Origin: Niastella populi
Lineage (GTDB): Bacteria > Bacteroidota > Bacteroidia > Chitinophagales > Chitinophagaceae
Direction of reading: 5' to 3'
Length of the DNA: 64,000 nucleotides
Assembly: GCF_002078015.1 (NCBI RefSeq)
Contig: NZ_LWBP01000201.1
Span: forward strand, 1 to 64,000
The position numbers and the translations under genes were made by a program. The first letter of the stretch is position 1, and every line of letters starts with the position of its first letter. A model generated the notes under the pieces. The model was not told the DNA's origin. It ran no database searches and worked only from the letters and a program-made list of their open reading frames with translations. Below are positions 9,659 to 56,650 of the stretch, in pieces.

Positions 9659-11137
9659 ATGAAACTTCAACCATCTGATCAATTAACCAATGCCCAGGTA
9701 AAAACCGGGTTGCATTTGATATTAAAGGATGGCCTTGCTACCGAGACCATAAACACACTTACAGCCGGTACCTTTCTGGTTGCCATAGCCTTATACATGG
9801 GCGCCTCGAACGTACAGATCGGTGTGCTGGCAGCGCTCCCTACGTTAACCAATATATTTCAGCTGGTATCGGTATGGCTGGTGCAACGGTTCAATAACCG
9901 CCGCGCCATAACAGTAACCGGCGCCATTTGCGCCCGCGTCCCTTTATTATTGATCGGAACCCTGCCCTTATTGTTTTCCGATACGGCCAGCGTTTCAGCC
10001 CTTATTTTTCTTTTGTCGTTTCAATACCTGTTTGCCTCTATTGCCGGTGGCAGCTGGAACTCCTGGATGCGCGATCTTATTCCACAACAGATACTGGGCA
10101 GCTACTTCTCTCACCGCAGCCGCCTGATGCAAATATTGAATGTTACGCTCAGCCTGTTCATTGCCATGAGCATAGATCACATAAAGGAACATTATCCCGC
10201 CCATGAGATCACAGCTTATGCCTGCATGTTCATTATCAGCGGTATAGCTGGTATGTGGGGCGCTTATGCACTTGCGCGCACCCCCGAACCAAAATCAAAA
10301 CCTATTAACGATAACATCGTTAAGCTTTTCAGCAAACCGCTCACCGTGCCCAATTTCAGAAAGCTGCTGGTGTTCAACTCCTGCTGGATCTTTGCGTTCA
10401 ACCTGGTTACACCCTTCTTCTCGGTATACATGATGAAGAACCTGGGTTTACCACTGGTATATGTCATCAGTTTAAACATTGTTAGCCAGGTGAGCAGTAT
10501 CACTTCTATAAAATTATGGGGAAGATGTTCAGACCGTTATAGTAACAAAACCATTATTCGCATTTGTGCTCCGGTATATATAACCTGCATTATGGCCTGG
10601 TCGGTGATCGGCATCATGAGTTCAGTATTCATGCTGCCTGTGCTGGTGATCATGCACATGCTGATGGGCGCTTCCAATGCAGGCATCACGCTTGCCCTGC
10701 AAAACGTTGGGTTAAAACTGGCTCCCGCCGATGAAGGCATCGTATACCTGGTAACCAAAAACATGTGCACGGCGGTATTTTCAGCAACTGCCCCGTTAGT
10801 GGGTGGTTTACTGGCCGATTTCTTTACCAGCCATTTTGTAATTGATTTATTCGGGCGCGGACAATGGAACCTGTTCTTTATGGCAGGCGCCGTGGTTGGT
10901 GTTCTTTCAATGAAATTATTAAAGGCCGTTAGTGAAGATGGCGAACTCGATAAAAAGTTGCTGGTTGCCGAACTGCAACATAATTTCAAAAAACGCGTAC
11001 GCAACTGGCATCACCTGCCCATCTTACGCCGGTATTTTTATTTGCGCAAAGCTATAGTTTTCAAGAAAGGCCTCTCGCTTGAATTTGATGACCTCATTCA
11101 GTTCAAAGGCTGGAACGAAAGGCAGCCAAAAGCCTAA
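9659..11137 (+). CDS. MFS transporter of unknown substrate
   Basis: A 492-residue inner-membrane carrier with about twelve hydrophobic segments and a central hydrophilic loop near residue 215. The cytoplasmic C-terminal tail (about 425-492) is basic and aromatic. The loop 2-3 motif RFNNRRAITVTG is a loose form of the MFS A-motif. Substrate cannot be told from the sequence. It is transcribed alone. The last three codons (coding QPKA before the stop) and the downstream DNA belong to the AAATACAGC repeat family, so the C-terminal tail may have been redefined by the repeat. Confidence 0.85.
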   Translation: MKLQPSDQLTNAQVKTGLHLILKDGLATETINTLTAGTFLVAIALYMGASNVQIGVLAALPTLTNIFQLVSVWLVQRFNNRRAITVTGAICARVPLLLIGTLPLLFSDTASVSALIFLLSFQYLFASIAGGSWNSWMRDLIPQQILGSYFSHRSRLMQILNVTLSLFIAMSIDHIKEHYPAHEITAYACMFIISGIAGMWGAYALARTPEPKSKPINDNIVKLFSKPLTVPNFRKLLVFNSCWIFAFNLVTPFFSVYMMKNLGLPLVYVISLNIVSQVSSITSIKLWGRCSDRYSNKTIIRICAPVYITCIMAWSVIGIMSSVFMLPVLVIMHMLMGASNAGITLALQNVGLKLAPADEGIVYLVTKNMCTAVFSATAPLVGGLLADFFTSHFVIDLFGRGQWNLFFMAGAVVGVLSMKLLKAVSEDGELDKKLLVAELQHNFKKRVRNWHHLPILRRYFYLRKAIVFKKGLSLEFDDLIQFKGWNERQPKA

Positions 11138-11507
11138 GGGCAAATACAGCTGCAAGCTGTAAGCCACAAGCCGAAAGCGAATACAAATACAGCTGCAAGC
11201 TGCAAGCCTTAAGCTGCAAGCAAATACAAATACAGCTGCAAGCCACAAGCTGCAAGCAAATACAAATACAGCTTAAATGCTACAAATACAGCTGCAAGCC
11301 ACAAGCCGCAAGCGAATACAAATACAGCTGTAAGCCTTAAGCTGCAAGCAAATACAGCTTAAATGCTACTTCACCGGTTTTTGCCTTCCCTTTATCAACT
11401 CAATCACCTGTATCAACTTATCAACTCTCCTGTATTTGCTTTTTCATTTCTCATTTACCTGTATTTCACTTCGACGTTGGAAATTCGATATTCGACATTC
11501 TTCTGTT
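11138..11507. repeat. AAATACAGCTGCAAGC repeat array and related words
   Basis: The gap between the convergent MFS and clc genes is filled with repeats. Positions 11138-11370 hold at least eight imperfect copies of (C)AAATACAGCTGCAAGC with variants GCCACAAGC, GCCTTAAGC and GCCGAAAGC. Positions 11392-11430 hold TATCAACT-type words, and 11440-11545 hold TTTCATTTCTCATT-type words that run into the 3' end of the clc gene. No T-tract terminator is clear. Confidence 0.85.
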
Positions 11508-33563: not shown

Positions 33564-34045
33564 ATGCGTTTATGACTATATGGACAGGCGTTTTTGAAAA
33601 CACCATTAAAAGAAAATGAGATTTTTTAGAAAAAATATTGAATGACGAATTTCCAGGGAAGACAGGGGAATGTTGAATATCGAATATCCAATGTTGAATG
33701 TAGAAGGGAATACAGGAAATGAGAAATGAGGAATAAAAAATGAACAATGAGAAAGGGAATACAGAAAACAGAAGAATAACGAATGGTCATTGCAGCTGTA
33801 TTTTGTATTCGCTTGCAGCTTGCAGCTGTATTGCTTGAGGCTTGCAGCTTGAAACTTGAAGCTGTATTTTGTATTCGCTTGAAACTTGCAGCTGTATTTT
33901 GTATTCGCTTGCAGCTTGAAGCTTGAAGCTTGCAGCTGTATTTTGTATTCGCTTGCAGCTTGAGGCTTGCAGCTTGCAGCTGTATTTTGTATTCGCTTGC
34001 AGCTGTATTTACTTTAGGCTTTTAGCTTTCGGCCTTCGGCTGTAT
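33564..34045. repeat. Repeat-filled gap between sigma and anti-sigma genes
   Basis: About 33640-33775 is GAAATGAGAAATGAGG/GAATATCGAATATCC-type sequence. Positions 33786-34045 are imperfect copies of GCTTGCAGCTGTATTTTGTA (the opposite strand of the AAATACAGC family at 11138). The array runs into the sigma factor gene and codes its last residues. This unusual spacer separates two genes that are normally adjacent. Confidence 0.85.
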
Positions 34046-53341: not shown

Positions 53342-54037
53342 ATGGCTGGTCAATTTTGGGGGTTCATACTGCCTCAGGCGGCATTATCTGCCGGTTACCT
53401 GGAGTATCTGAATATTAAATGCAATCGTTTTTAACTTAATCCAATGTCAATTCTAGTGAGATATTTTTTAATTAATGAGAAACCACTGGCATTTTTCTAT
53501 GCAATCGTTCCCGGCAACGATGTAAACCGCAGGGAACTAACAGGGTAAGCAATGTTACCGGTTGTTGGTTACTGGTTGCCGGTGCAGAAACGATGTTTAG
53601 GGCGAATGGTTTCCTGAACAAAAAAACCTGTTATAATCCGTGCCACGGTGTGCATTATCCCATTTTGCTAATTGCTTATTGCGCATTGTTAATCAATGCC
53701 CCCGGCTTTGCGCCAGCCTTCCGGGGCAGGCACTCACCGTTGCGGAAAGTTTTGAATACCAGGTTTTGCGCCGGCCTTTTCCCGTGCAATCAACCCCAGG
53801 TTCAATTGGAATATGAAATTGGTAAGCGTACCAGGTTTTGCGAACTCCTATAATTCGCAGTTCTCTTTTTGGCAACAGGCAAAAGCTGCCGGTTTTCGGT
53901 CTGTCCTAAAATTTGCAAATTTCTTCCCTGCCTGTTGTCTATCGCCTATGGCCAATTGGTTACTATATTGCAAATTGCAATTGTTTAACAGCCTTATAGA
54001 AAAAAGACTATTTTTATCGGTATATAGCAGCCATACT
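53342..54037. other. Divergent promoter region, susC pair 2 and lacI
   Basis: About 700 bases without a gene. The half near susC holds the palindrome at 53504-53521 and related GCAATCGTTTTTAAC at 53421-53436. The half near lacI has GC-rich words at 53690-53790 and AT-rich words (TTGCAAATTGCAATTG near 53968). It should contain the promoters for both transcripts; no consensus is clear enough to place them. Confidence 0.45.
53504..53521. promoter_or_regulatory. Candidate LacI-family operator
   Basis: ATCGTTCCCGGCAACGAT: arms ATCGTT and AACGAT are exact inverted repeats around a CG-containing centre, the form of LacI/GalR-family operators. It lies about 163 bases upstream of the susC pair 2 start, in the region shared with the LacI-type gene. 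A close match is at 26983-27000. Confidence 0.5.
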
Positions 54038-55093
54038 GTGAAATTTGAGACTGTAACCATAAAAGATATCGCCAGGGCGTTGGGACTTTCAACTTCTACC
54101 GTTTCGCGTGCATTGCGTGGTAGTTATGAGATCAGTCCCGAAACAAAAAAACTGGTGCTTGAATACGCCGAGAAAATCAATTACCGGCCCAACCCGATCG
54201 CTTTGAGTTTGAAAGAACGGAAAAGCCGGTCGATCGGCGTGGTAGTCAGCGAGATCGCTAATACGTTTTTCTCGCAGGCGATCAATGGAATTGAATCCAT
54301 TGCTTACAACCGGGGCTACCACGTTATTATTTCCCAAAGCCATGAATCGTACGAGCGGGAAAAGGTGACCATTCAACACCTTGCCTCGCGTTCGGTTGAC
54401 GGGTTGCTGGTATCGCTCTCGAACGAAACCATCGATCTGAGCCACCTGAAACAGCTTCACGAAAAAGGGTTGCCGGTTGTGTTCTTCGACCGCATTACCG
54501 ACGAAATAAATACCCATAAGGTTACTGCCAATAATTTCAAAGGCGCTTATGATGCCACCCAGCATTTGATCAATAAAGGTTTTACCCGCATTGCGCATAT
54601 TACCAATTCGCAAAACCTGTCAATAACCCGCGAGCGGTTGCAGGGGTACCAGGAGGCGCTGAAGAAGAATAATATCCCGTTTGATGAAAAGCTGGTGCAC
54701 TACACCCTGCATGGCGGTATGATCTATGATGAGATCGAGGGAGAAATAAAAAAGATGTTCAGTGCCCGTCAAAAACCTGACGCTATTTTAACCGCCAGCG
54801 ATCGCGTTACTACCTCCTGCCTTACGGCCCTGAAAGCTGCCGGTAAACGCATACCGGAAGATATTTCGGTGATAGGTTTTACCAATACCAATATTGCAGA
54901 GCTGTTCAACCCGCCTTTATCGGCTGTTCGCCAGCCGGCCTTCGATATGGGCCAGGCGGCTACGGAGCTGCTGATCCAGATCATCGAGAGCAAACGCCCC
55001 GTTACTGAGTTTGAAACGAGGATCCTCGATACGGAGTTGTTTACCAGGGAGAGTTCGGAGCACCCGCCAATACAGCCGAAAGCTGAAAGCTGA
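54038..55093 (+). CDS. LacI-family transcriptional regulator
   Basis: A 351-residue regulator from a GTG start; the homology begins VKFETVTIKDIARALGLS. The frame is open further upstream but shows no family character there. Residues 6-60 are the LacI headpiece (TIKDIARALGLSTSTVSRAL, then PNPIALSLKERKS hinge). Residues about 62-340 are the periplasmic-binding-like effector domain (SIGVVVSEIANTFFS, DGLLVSLSNE, PVVFFDRI, GFTRIAHIT, ISVIGFTN). It probably represses the pectin genes until a pectin sugar appears. The last codons (coding IQPKAES) are part of the AAATACAGC-type repeat. Confidence 0.92.
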   Translation: MKFETVTIKDIARALGLSTSTVSRALRGSYEISPETKKLVLEYAEKINYRPNPIALSLKERKSRSIGVVVSEIANTFFSQAINGIESIAYNRGYHVIISQSHESYEREKVTIQHLASRSVDGLLVSLSNETIDLSHLKQLHEKGLPVVFFDRITDEINTHKVTANNFKGAYDATQHLINKGFTRIAHITNSQNLSITRERLQGYQEALKKNNIPFDEKLVHYTLHGGMIYDEIEGEIKKMFSARQKPDAILTASDRVTTSCLTALKAAGKRIPEDISVIGFTNTNIAELFNPPLSAVRQPAFDMGQAATELLIQIIESKRPVTEFETRILDTELFTRESSEHPPIQPKAES

Positions 55094-55345: not shown

Positions 55346-55577
55346 CAGTAAAAACCCGGTTATTTATCATATTTTTTTACCCCCATTTCATATGAAAATG
55401 GTGCTTTACCATATGCTTTCAACCTGTTTTCATATGAAAATGGTACTTGTTCATATGATACTACTACGTTTTCATATGAAAATGGAACGCTACCATATGA
55501 TTTCACTATGTTTTCATATGAAAATGATACTCCACCATATGATTTAAATACGTTTTCATATGAAAAAGCGGTTCTGC
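55346..55577. repeat. Phased 21-bp array, CATATG part
   Basis: CATATG occurs nine times at exactly 21-base steps: 55389, 55410, 55431, 55452, 55473, 55494, 55515, 55536 and 55557. Diverged units continue the phase upstream (CATATT at 55368, CAGTAA at 55346). Odd units read CATATGAAAATGG; even units read CATATGATTTCAC and end in GTTTT. This makes a 42-bp dimer, with the 14-base palindrome TTTTCATATGAAAA at 55427, 55469, 55511 and 55553. It is not in an open frame. Binding protein and role unknown. Confidence 0.93.
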
Positions 55578-55840
55578 CAAATTCTTCCGCCTCTTCCGTA
55601 ATTATAAACGCTCATTTAAAATTGCAAACCATGCTTCCATAATCCTGGATGCCCCTTCCATAATTTTGAAACATGCTTCCATAATTTTGAATCCCCTTCC
55701 CTAATTACGGAATATACTTCCGGAATTTTGAAAACCCGCTCATAATTACGGAACGTACTTCCAGAATTTTAAATCCCCGTTTATAATTACAAATCATGCC
55801 TCAAGAATTATAAACGGCCATTACTAATTTCAAAATGACC
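55578..55840. repeat. Phased 20-21 bp array, TAATT/GAATT part
   Basis: The phase of the CATATG units continues with CAAATT at 55578 and then units starting at 55599, 55619, 55640, 55661, 55682, 55702, 55723, 55743, 55764, 55784, 55805 and 55825 (average step 20.5). The unit is TAATTTTGAAAC-CTTCC. From 55702 the units alternate between TAATTACGGAAC-type and GAATTTTGAAA-type, a 41-bp dimer. It ends about 110 bases before the rpiA start. No coding potential. Confidence 0.88.
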
Positions 55841-55951
55841 AACAAATGTTATCAGCCGGTCCTTCATTATAAGCCCCACGGCTAAAGCAATGAGTGAATA
55901 GTTTGTTTTCATATGTGTGCTATTAACAAATTTTCCAATTATCTTCACCTC

Positions 55952-56650
55952 ATGCTAACGCAGGATGAGATCAAGCAATTGGTAGCGAAACAGGCCGCCC
56001 AACTGGTTCAAAACAATATGACAGTTGGTATTGGTACAGGTTCTACGGTTTACTGGCTTATTATGGAGCTGGGAAGCCGGGTTAAGCAGGGGTTGTTCTT
56101 TCGCGCTATTCCCACCTCTAAAAAAACGGCCACCCTTTGCGCCCAACAAAATATTCCACTGGCCGCTTTGAACGACGTTACCGCTTTAGATATCACCATC
56201 GACGGGGCCGATGAAATTGACCCCAACCTGCAATTGATAAAGGGCGGTGGCGGCGCATTATTACAGGAGAAAATGGTGGCGGCCGCATCACGTGAACTGT
56301 TTATCCTTGCCGATGAAACCAAACTGGTACGTCAACTGGGCAAATTCCCCCTGCCGCTGGAAGTAATTCCATTTGGCTGGAAGCAGGTGCAGCGGCACAT
56401 ACAGGCAACCTATAATGTAAAAGCGTCTTTACGCACTAAAGATGACCAACCCTTCGTCAGCGATCATGGCCATTATATTCTCGACTGCCCCTTCAATAAA
56501 ATTGAGCACCCCGGTATTTTAACGTATGACCTGAACGCCATCCCCGGTGTGGTTGATAATGGGTTGTTCATAAACATGGCCGATATGGTGCTGGTGGGAT
56601 ACGCTGATGGAAGAACCGAAACGCTGCAAAATAATACAGCTGAAAGCTAG
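55952..56650 (+). CDS. rpiA: Ribose-5-phosphate isomerase A
   Basis: A 232-residue cytoplasmic enzyme that interconverts ribose-5-phosphate and ribulose-5-phosphate. Motifs are MTVGIGTGSTV (phosphate loop), ITIDGADEIDP (catalytic Asp/Glu), KGGGGALLQEKM and ADETKLV, all typical of RpiA. ATG 55952 is preferred over an in-frame ATG 13 codons upstream, which lies next to a CATATG word. The C-terminal residues NTAES are coded by the start of an AAATACAGC-type repeat. The MocR-type gene follows after 228 bases. Confidence 0.95.
   Translation: MLTQDEIKQLVAKQAAQLVQNNMTVGIGTGSTVYWLIMELGSRVKQGLFFRAIPTSKKTATLCAQQNIPLAALNDVTALDITIDGADEIDPNLQLIKGGGGALLQEKMVAAASRELFILADETKLVRQLGKFPLPLEVIPFGWKQVQRHIQATYNVKASLRTKDDQPFVSDHGHYILDCPFNKIEHPGILTYDLNAIPGVVDNGLFINMADMVLVGYADGRTETLQNNTAES

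Follow-up and report, generated by a model that had tools for sequence, protein, structure and literature searches.

The intergenic region between a gene for a LacI-family regulator and rpiA in Niastella populi (hereafter the host) carries two abutting arrays of short phased sites. They lie in the 64,000-nucleotide stretch of contig NZ_LWBP01000201.1 analysed here, called the window. A first, sequence-only reading had placed a repeat array between lacI and rpiA, and the Pfam matches of both neighbours agree with this location. Table 1 summarizes the features.

Table 1. Features of the array locus (positions in the window).
Feature	Positions	Strand	Basis and remarks
LacI-family regulator ORF, upstream neighbour	53813..55093	+	Pfam; HTH match begins only at residue 82; the actual start probably lies further inside the ORF
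Decayed first unit (CATATT), array-phased	55368..55388		Sequence
Array of nine CATATG units of 21 bp, with 15-bp spacers that alternate between two kinds (42-bp dimer)	55381..55569		
AATT array, twelve sites of TTCC..AATT..GGAA type, 20/21 alternating (41-bp dimer), gap near 55641	55580..55840		
rpiA ORF, downstream neighbour	55913..56650	+	Pfam; comparison with sister sequences favours the ATG at 55952 as start

In the first array CATATG starts at 55389, 55410, 55431, 55452, 55473, 55494, 55515, 55536 and 55557, i.e. at steps of exactly 21 bp as first read, and the CATATT at 55368 indeed keeps the phase upstream. When the window was resampled 200 times under a first-order Markov model, no chain exceeded 2, against nine here. 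In the second array AATT starts at 55580, 55600, 55620, 55662, 55683, 55703, 55724, 55744, 55765, 55785, 55806 and 55826, with steps of 20, 20 and 42 (one site absent), followed by an alternation of 21 and 20. The claim of a distinct downstream unit, repeated about twelve times at steps of 20 or 21, is thus correct; its wording as TAATT/GAATT plus CTTCC is not the best one, since AATT-centred TTCC..AATT..GGAA dyads fit better. Identity within the CATATG part was 77% at lag 42, 53% at lag 63 and 51% at lag 21, and at background for lags 7 and 14 (24% and 23%), so that a 7-mer origin of the 21-bp lag was rejected. For the AATT part the best lag was 41, with 61% identity, the top value over lags 15-65 in 500 resamplings being 41%. 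We conclude from the nine-chain and the 41-bp lag that chance is ruled out, and from the two lag profiles that both dimers, of 42 and 41 bp, are real, as had been proposed. The AATT unit was found again in the host at C24:73568; single matches of its pattern in the sister genomes G007 and G001 were not counted, as the reversed control behaved alike (1 or 2 matches in four genomes). Elsewhere in the window, degenerate repeats of 7-mer type (GCTTGCA/AGCTGCA) with higher periods of 36-49 bp were observed at 11085-11340 and 33596-34024.

The array is not alone in its genome; a lone array would have spoken against the sequence-only reading. Searched over the 8.6 Mb of the host assembly, the pattern CATATG-N15-CATATG-N15-CATATG gave 57 matches and its reverse gave 0. 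The 50 triples listed among these 57 lie in eight arrays; the remaining seven agree with one more array, the ninth, which a lag scan found at C253:197k and which has nine cores. Together the nine chains hold 75 intact cores, on contigs C145, C189, C200 (the window), C214, C218, C234, C240 and C253 (two). Three host contigs (L008, L009 and L010) begin or end at a CATATG array, and whole arrays may therefore number fewer than nine. Close CATATG pairs (60 bp or less) in 588.5 kb of host DNA, array loci included, were 21 bp apart in 66 of 68 cases, the other two being at 12 and 13 bp. In the same 588.5 kb of the 8.6-Mb genome, not a single TTTTCATATGAAAA was found outside arrays, so isolated promoter sites of the sort that mark a transcription-factor regulon were not seen. 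A decayed remnant at C2:258633 was kept outside the nine arrays, while C206:26610 and one match in sister G002 were dropped as coding-looking sequence without an array. The distribution is dispersed, clustered and, by ORF calling, extragenic, between tandem, convergent and divergent gene pairs. The neighbours examined with Pfam (8 proteins at 5 loci) were lacI, rpiA, yebC, DCC1, a ubiX-type flavoprotein, lolA, an ABC transporter and one unnamed protein, and we found no common theme in the neighbouring genes of the arrays or their orientations.

CATATG triples were present in 1 of 59 genomes of the genus, family and order, that of the host alone. Other words take the same step in sister species. 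TCCYRGGA triples at 21 bp were counted 48 times in N. koreensis and 8 times in G009; of the 394 family genomes searched, the remaining 392 had none, and the reversed control gave 0. A CARYTG unit gave 43 forward and 44 reverse matches in N. koreensis, forming 11 arrays from 0.36 to 8.44 Mb, and one stray match in G001. GTATAC, the reversed pattern of the 59-genome search, yielded 1 triple in N. koreensis and 6 in G035, which are too few to make a further word, the six all falling inside one 280-bp stretch. A restriction or uptake word was rejected, as CATATG, CAGTTG and CCTGGG outside arrays have observed/expected ratios of 0.72 to 1.19 in six genome samples. A further 21/42-bp family, of GAAAATGAGTTGGGCAATTCA type, was observed at two loci of G002 (L250 440-900 and L261 1640-1860).

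In the three related families, the fullest units read TTTTC-NNNN-GAAAA, with ATAT, AACT/AGTT or CYRG inside, followed by a 15-bp spacer. Many units deviate in the outer tracts: the TTTT-core-AAAA frame is present at 32 of 74 CATATG, 3 of 34 CARYTG and 7 of 81 TCCYRGGA sites, and no covariation of the A/T tracts across the core was found beyond composition. With the fullest frame in a minority of sites and tracts that do not covary, strict dyad recognition is unproven. Most TCCYRGGA cores are in fact asymmetric, the centre being TG or CA in 63 of 78, and in the CARYTG arrays successive cores are mutually inverted (28 of 28). Pairing of the flanks around CATATG involved a mean of 1.57 of 4 positions against 1.05 after shuffling, as bare means over 118 arrays (7 from the host and 111 stretches listed in the scan of a genome collection described below). 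In the window array and in four lag-found arrays, the 21 columns of the unit differ in how many mismatches they carry (p from 0.0002 to 0.0084), so the even divergence expected of a minisatellite (VNTR) without privileged columns was not seen in these five. In the CATATG and TCCYRGGA arrays among them the mismatches avoid the core; in the two CARYTG arrays, where core orientation alternates, they avoid the A and T of CA..TG. One array (L146) has a 19-bp step.

The host core is uniform across the nine dispersed arrays, and 55 of 66 host spacers are distinct. Between families with different words the spacers nevertheless resemble each other: the best identity over the central 7 positions was 5.2 to 5.9 of 7, against 3.8 to 4.5 with shuffled centres, and in each of 12 comparisons the observed mean was reached by 0 of 300 shuffles preserving ends and composition. 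In one pair, the host spacer AAAATGGTATCAAAT and the N. koreensis spacer AAAACGGTATCAAAT are nearly identical. Descent, or a common positional preference alone, could account for this resemblance.

Array positions were then compared between genomes through the ORFs flanking 32 arrays, among them 4 of the 11 CARYTG loci. rpiA was found in 9 of the 10 genomes of the genus, and in 5 of these 9 a phased array of 20-21 bp lies upstream, with at least four words: CATATG and AATT in the host, a TCGTTCAATTTG-type word at lag 42 in G002, a CCCAGGATTT-type word in N. koreensis and G009, and an array at lag 41 in G006. No 20-21-bp array was seen in the rpiA gap of G001, G003, G004 or G007, the G003 locus giving one weak match at an 11-bp lag. 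The yebC/DCC1 intergene is occupied by an array of CATATG in the host and by one of CARYTG in N. koreensis, with no array of 20-21-bp type in the other eight of ten genomes. At ubiX/lolA such an array is present in the host alone, 9 of 10 genomes being without; other repeats near ubiX have lags of 47 (G006), 83 (G007) and 14 (G008). Arrays of this type are thus unseen at rpiA in four of nine genomes, at yebC in eight of ten and at ubiX in nine of ten, so that none of them is essential.

Between N. koreensis and G009, the loci at 664k and C15 share both flanks and the word TCCYRGGA. The N. koreensis locus at 1.432 Mb is CARYTG, whereas the matching G009 locus at C24:469k is TCCYRGGA; the flanks are 88.6% identical over 1215 bp and 81.6% over 1333 bp, and the cores differ. 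Weaker cases, sharing one flank, are those of N. koreensis 2257k (TCCYRGGA) with G009 C16:163k (TCCYRGGA; left neighbour 77%) and with host C218 (CATATG; right neighbour 63%). N. koreensis 108k and host C253:51k (56% identity) were rejected as a shared address, their orientation being opposite. Two further objections anticipated by the sequence-only reading thereby lose ground. The array locus is kept in 4 of the 8 sisters with an rpiA match, and an assembly artefact is disfavoured because N. koreensis, an array-bearing sister, is assembled as a single contig of 9,033,684 bp.

To what extent is the 21-bp step a general habit of tandem repeats in these genomes? A word-free census of lags 9 to 129 covered 400 kb from each of five sisters (taken at even steps in N. 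koreensis) and 395 kb of host contigs; block-shuffled DNA gave no matches in 600 kb of this lag scan. N. koreensis yielded 12 hits, of which 8 at lags 21, 42 or 63 correspond to 5 arrays, the others being two at 14 (7-mer repeats), one at 87 and one at 113. In G002, 5 of 9 hits were at 21, 42 or 126 and make up 3 arrays, one perhaps coding (L250) and two weak. The host sample had 1 of 12 hits at 42, G009 had 0 of 13 at lags of 21-bp type, and the 2 of 15 in G006 and 2 of 19 in G004 at lag 21 all look like 7-mer repeats. Over the six Niastella genomes the commonest lag was 14, typical of the 7-mer repeats (16 hits), followed by 11, 21 and 42 (8 each). The 21-bp preference is thus clear in N. 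koreensis and hinted in G002; it is not visible in the census of G009, G006, G004 or the host sample, and is not general to tandem repeats across the genus.

Repeats at 11-bp steps that look like long imperfect hairpins, both arms repeating, were also observed in G009 (L211 3863-3990, L217 17262-17390 and L222 17260-17380), G006 (L235 13315-13400) and G002 (L254 3224-3320). A strict hairpin scan gave 2 matches in 2.59 Mb and retained L222 alone of these repeats. Eleven bp is the pitch of A-form RNA, and for this reason the 11-bp-step repeats may be a counterpart at the RNA level.

CATATG at a 21-bp step is also found outside the order. A scan of a genome collection returned at least 111 stretches, some from unrelated genomes, so that the words are lineage-specific within the genus only. 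Among the stretches listed, several metagenome-assembled genomes have more than one 21-bp array and flanking words particular to them: Tannerellaceae Gx481_bin210, Odoribacteraceae Gsp477_bin193, Spirochaetaceae Pc512_bin84, Prevotellaceae RUG14468 and two Umea Bacteroidetes. The first three families, with several arrays each among the stretches listed, are represented by L020, L030, L080 and L104; L023, L037, L105, L107, L108, L124 and L125; and L057, L068, L075, L083 and L106, respectively. Away from the original match, the stretches listed contain at least 49 further repeats, and for at least 30 the lag is 21, 42 or 63. L022 accounts for seven of these 30; they and some others look coding, and in coding sequence multiples of three are expected. 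A Planctomycetaceae contig, from a different phylum, has a unit nearly identical to that of the host (L128 2518-2686, ATTTTCATATGAAAATGA).

The best explanation, which we hold tentatively as somewhat short of an even call, is that the arrays are platforms for cooperative DNA binding, with a putative lineage-specific protein as their reader. Each platform would consist of some 8 to 15 short intergenic sites, two B-DNA turns apart and all facing one side of the helix. The reader, probably a dimer, would recognise the 6-bp core and pack cooperatively along one helix face, and the resulting nucleoprotein patch may act as a nucleoid, insulator or anchoring element rather than as the operator of a single gene. 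When the specificity of the reader shifts in a lineage, the cores would follow, and the spacers and addresses would stay. We infer this from the step, the uniformity of the core, the lineage-specificity of words inside the genus, the resemblance of spacers and the addresses kept at several loci. Weighing against it are the patchy presence of arrays at rpiA, yebC and ubiX, the minority share of the full frame, the mostly asymmetric TCCYRGGA core, the lack of a common theme among neighbouring genes and a 21-bp preference that the census does not show in G009, G006, G004 or the host sample. A cooperatively bound, same-face array had been suggested from the window alone; the two-turn step does recur at other host loci and with the words of sisters, and protein binding stays putative.

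The main rival is a functionless, satellite-like repeat, produced by slippage or unequal exchange, homogenised within each genome and retaining the 21-bp step of its founder. We consider this a real but rather unlikely possibility. It would fit the near-identical 42- and 84-bp copies inside some arrays, the abundance of other tandem repeats (7-mers, 11-mers) in the same genomes and the patchy presence of arrays at rpiA, yebC and ubiX. It accounts less well for the uneven mismatches in five arrays, for a core uniform over nine dispersed host arrays when the spacers are so diverse, for addresses kept despite a change of word, and for the 20-21-bp step with different words at rpiA. Intrinsic curvature from phased A/T tracts, without any specific protein, had also been put forward, and phased A-tract DNA is a known type of curved DNA. 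The arrays resemble it in having A/T tracts about every half unit and, in some families, a high predicted bend: the wedge-model maximum was at or above the 99.9th background percentile in 4 of 7 CATATG and 7 of 8 TCCYRGGA arrays, in L167 and in the G002 rpiA array. Part of this value is built in, since any word repeated at two turns adds bend in phase. Other families of the same period are not predicted to be curved (z of -0.3, -0.1 and 0.9 for CARYTG, -0.4 for AATT, -1.1 for G006 rpiA and 0.2 for L175), and five of 24 arrays have z below 0.3 (L159, L169, AATT, L175 and G006 rpiA). Bending, moreover, does not require the strict, uniform core, and we regard curvature as a very improbable account of the arrays, in spite of its fit to many CATATG and TCCYRGGA members. 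Least credible of all is a translated heptad-repeat protein (21 bp being 7 codons) or a hairpin-structured RNA. Some reading frames stay open across CATATG arrays on either strand, and certain loci hold ORFs of 70 to 125 aa, but the frame of the long ORFs varies from locus to locus, synonymous core changes are hardly ever seen, and the AATT array, in which steps of 20 break the heptad frame, has stops in all six frames. As to RNA, complementarity centred on the spacer falls short of chance in the host and TCCYRGGA families (observed/expected 2.11/2.48 and 1.77/2.36) and is at chance level for CARYTG (2.40/2.31), and the six Rfam matches are each under their gathering score.

Among described kinds of repeats, the closest to the arrays is REP/BIME. 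These elements are extragenic, dispersed and species-specific, and said to co-evolve with RAYT transposases (PMC2817692). The arrays share these three traits and resemble REP/BIME also in their regularly spaced clusters and, in the case of CARYTG, in an alternating orientation with all successive cores inverted. They could accordingly be a non-autonomous mobile or copied repeat, whose word tracks a fast-evolving copying or pasting enzyme; we judge this improbable. All 10 of the 10 Niastella have Y1_Tnp (PF01797) genes irrespective of known arrays, and the best-scoring copy is at least 37 kb from known arrays in host and N. koreensis. The surroundings of two host Y1_Tnp genes were examined and no RAYT was seen beside an array: no CATATG triple (triples alone being examined) lies within 37 kb of C145:137808, and around C253:62191 the first 3.5 kb of L140 contain no CATATG. 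The gene at C145:137808 is present in ten of ten Niastella; since its distance from ubiX is about 37-39 kb in several of these genomes, it is probably one orthologous gene. No single full site was seen outside arrays in the 588.5 kb of host DNA, and the kept addresses argue against free movement. Unlike REP/BIME, the arrays consist of short sites at a fixed two-turn step, their core swaps while the spacers stay alike, and hairpin potential is not kept: by spacer-centred complementarity, no stem-loop palindrome is maintained by compensatory change. The main text of a survey of REP (PMC12306157) does not contain the words Niastella or Chitinophag. Another report (PMC4679880) describes TAACTGA heptamer direct repeats, which are intergenic, occur in some Bacteroidetes too and, in its main genome, mostly sit directly upstream of start codons. 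The arrays are likewise intergenic direct repeats in Bacteroidetes, but those repeats, as described there, are heptamers, and lags 7 and 14 of the window array are at background. No published description of these arrays was found in the literature, subscription papers and preprints being mostly outside the coverage.

Iterons of plasmid origins and partition sites are tandem sites at whole turns, with a geometry for same-face cooperative binding. The arrays share the whole-turn spacing; unlike iterons, they are chromosomal, about a dozen per word and scattered over the genome, when an origin or centromere would have one or a few sites with a rep or par gene. No such gene was among the neighbours looked up (8 proteins, 5 loci). 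A role in replication, suggested by the sequence-only reading, is not supported, as the N. koreensis arrays spread from 0.1 to 8.4 Mb over the chromosome, and GC skew, proposed as a check, has no lasting sign change within the window. A mobile vector was rejected, since neither the 72,556 plasmid records nor the 50,697 phage records contained a match to the window array; a match of the two-core pattern in a viral contig looks coding and coincidental.

To return to the binding platform, a broader and clearly more speculative extension, which we think unlikely as it stands, is that sets of two-turn sites exist chromosome-wide at kept addresses in Niastella and, independently, in several gut and freshwater lineages, the word being rewritten in concert in each lineage as it tracks a fast-evolving DNA-binding protein. 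This would be a bacterial analogue of the turnover of centromere or hotspot words, conserving address and helical rhythm but not sequence. Because the core is swapped at one address between flanks 82-89% identical, in a pair of genomes that includes N. koreensis GR20-10, the question of binding and changing specificity is open to a direct test. Should no protein bind, what is left is a clean natural example of homogenised repeats with a helical period. If a protein does bind them, they would give a handle on a new nucleoid or insulator system in Bacteroidota, and would show how the specificity of a DNA-binding protein can change together with some 75 chromosomal sites.
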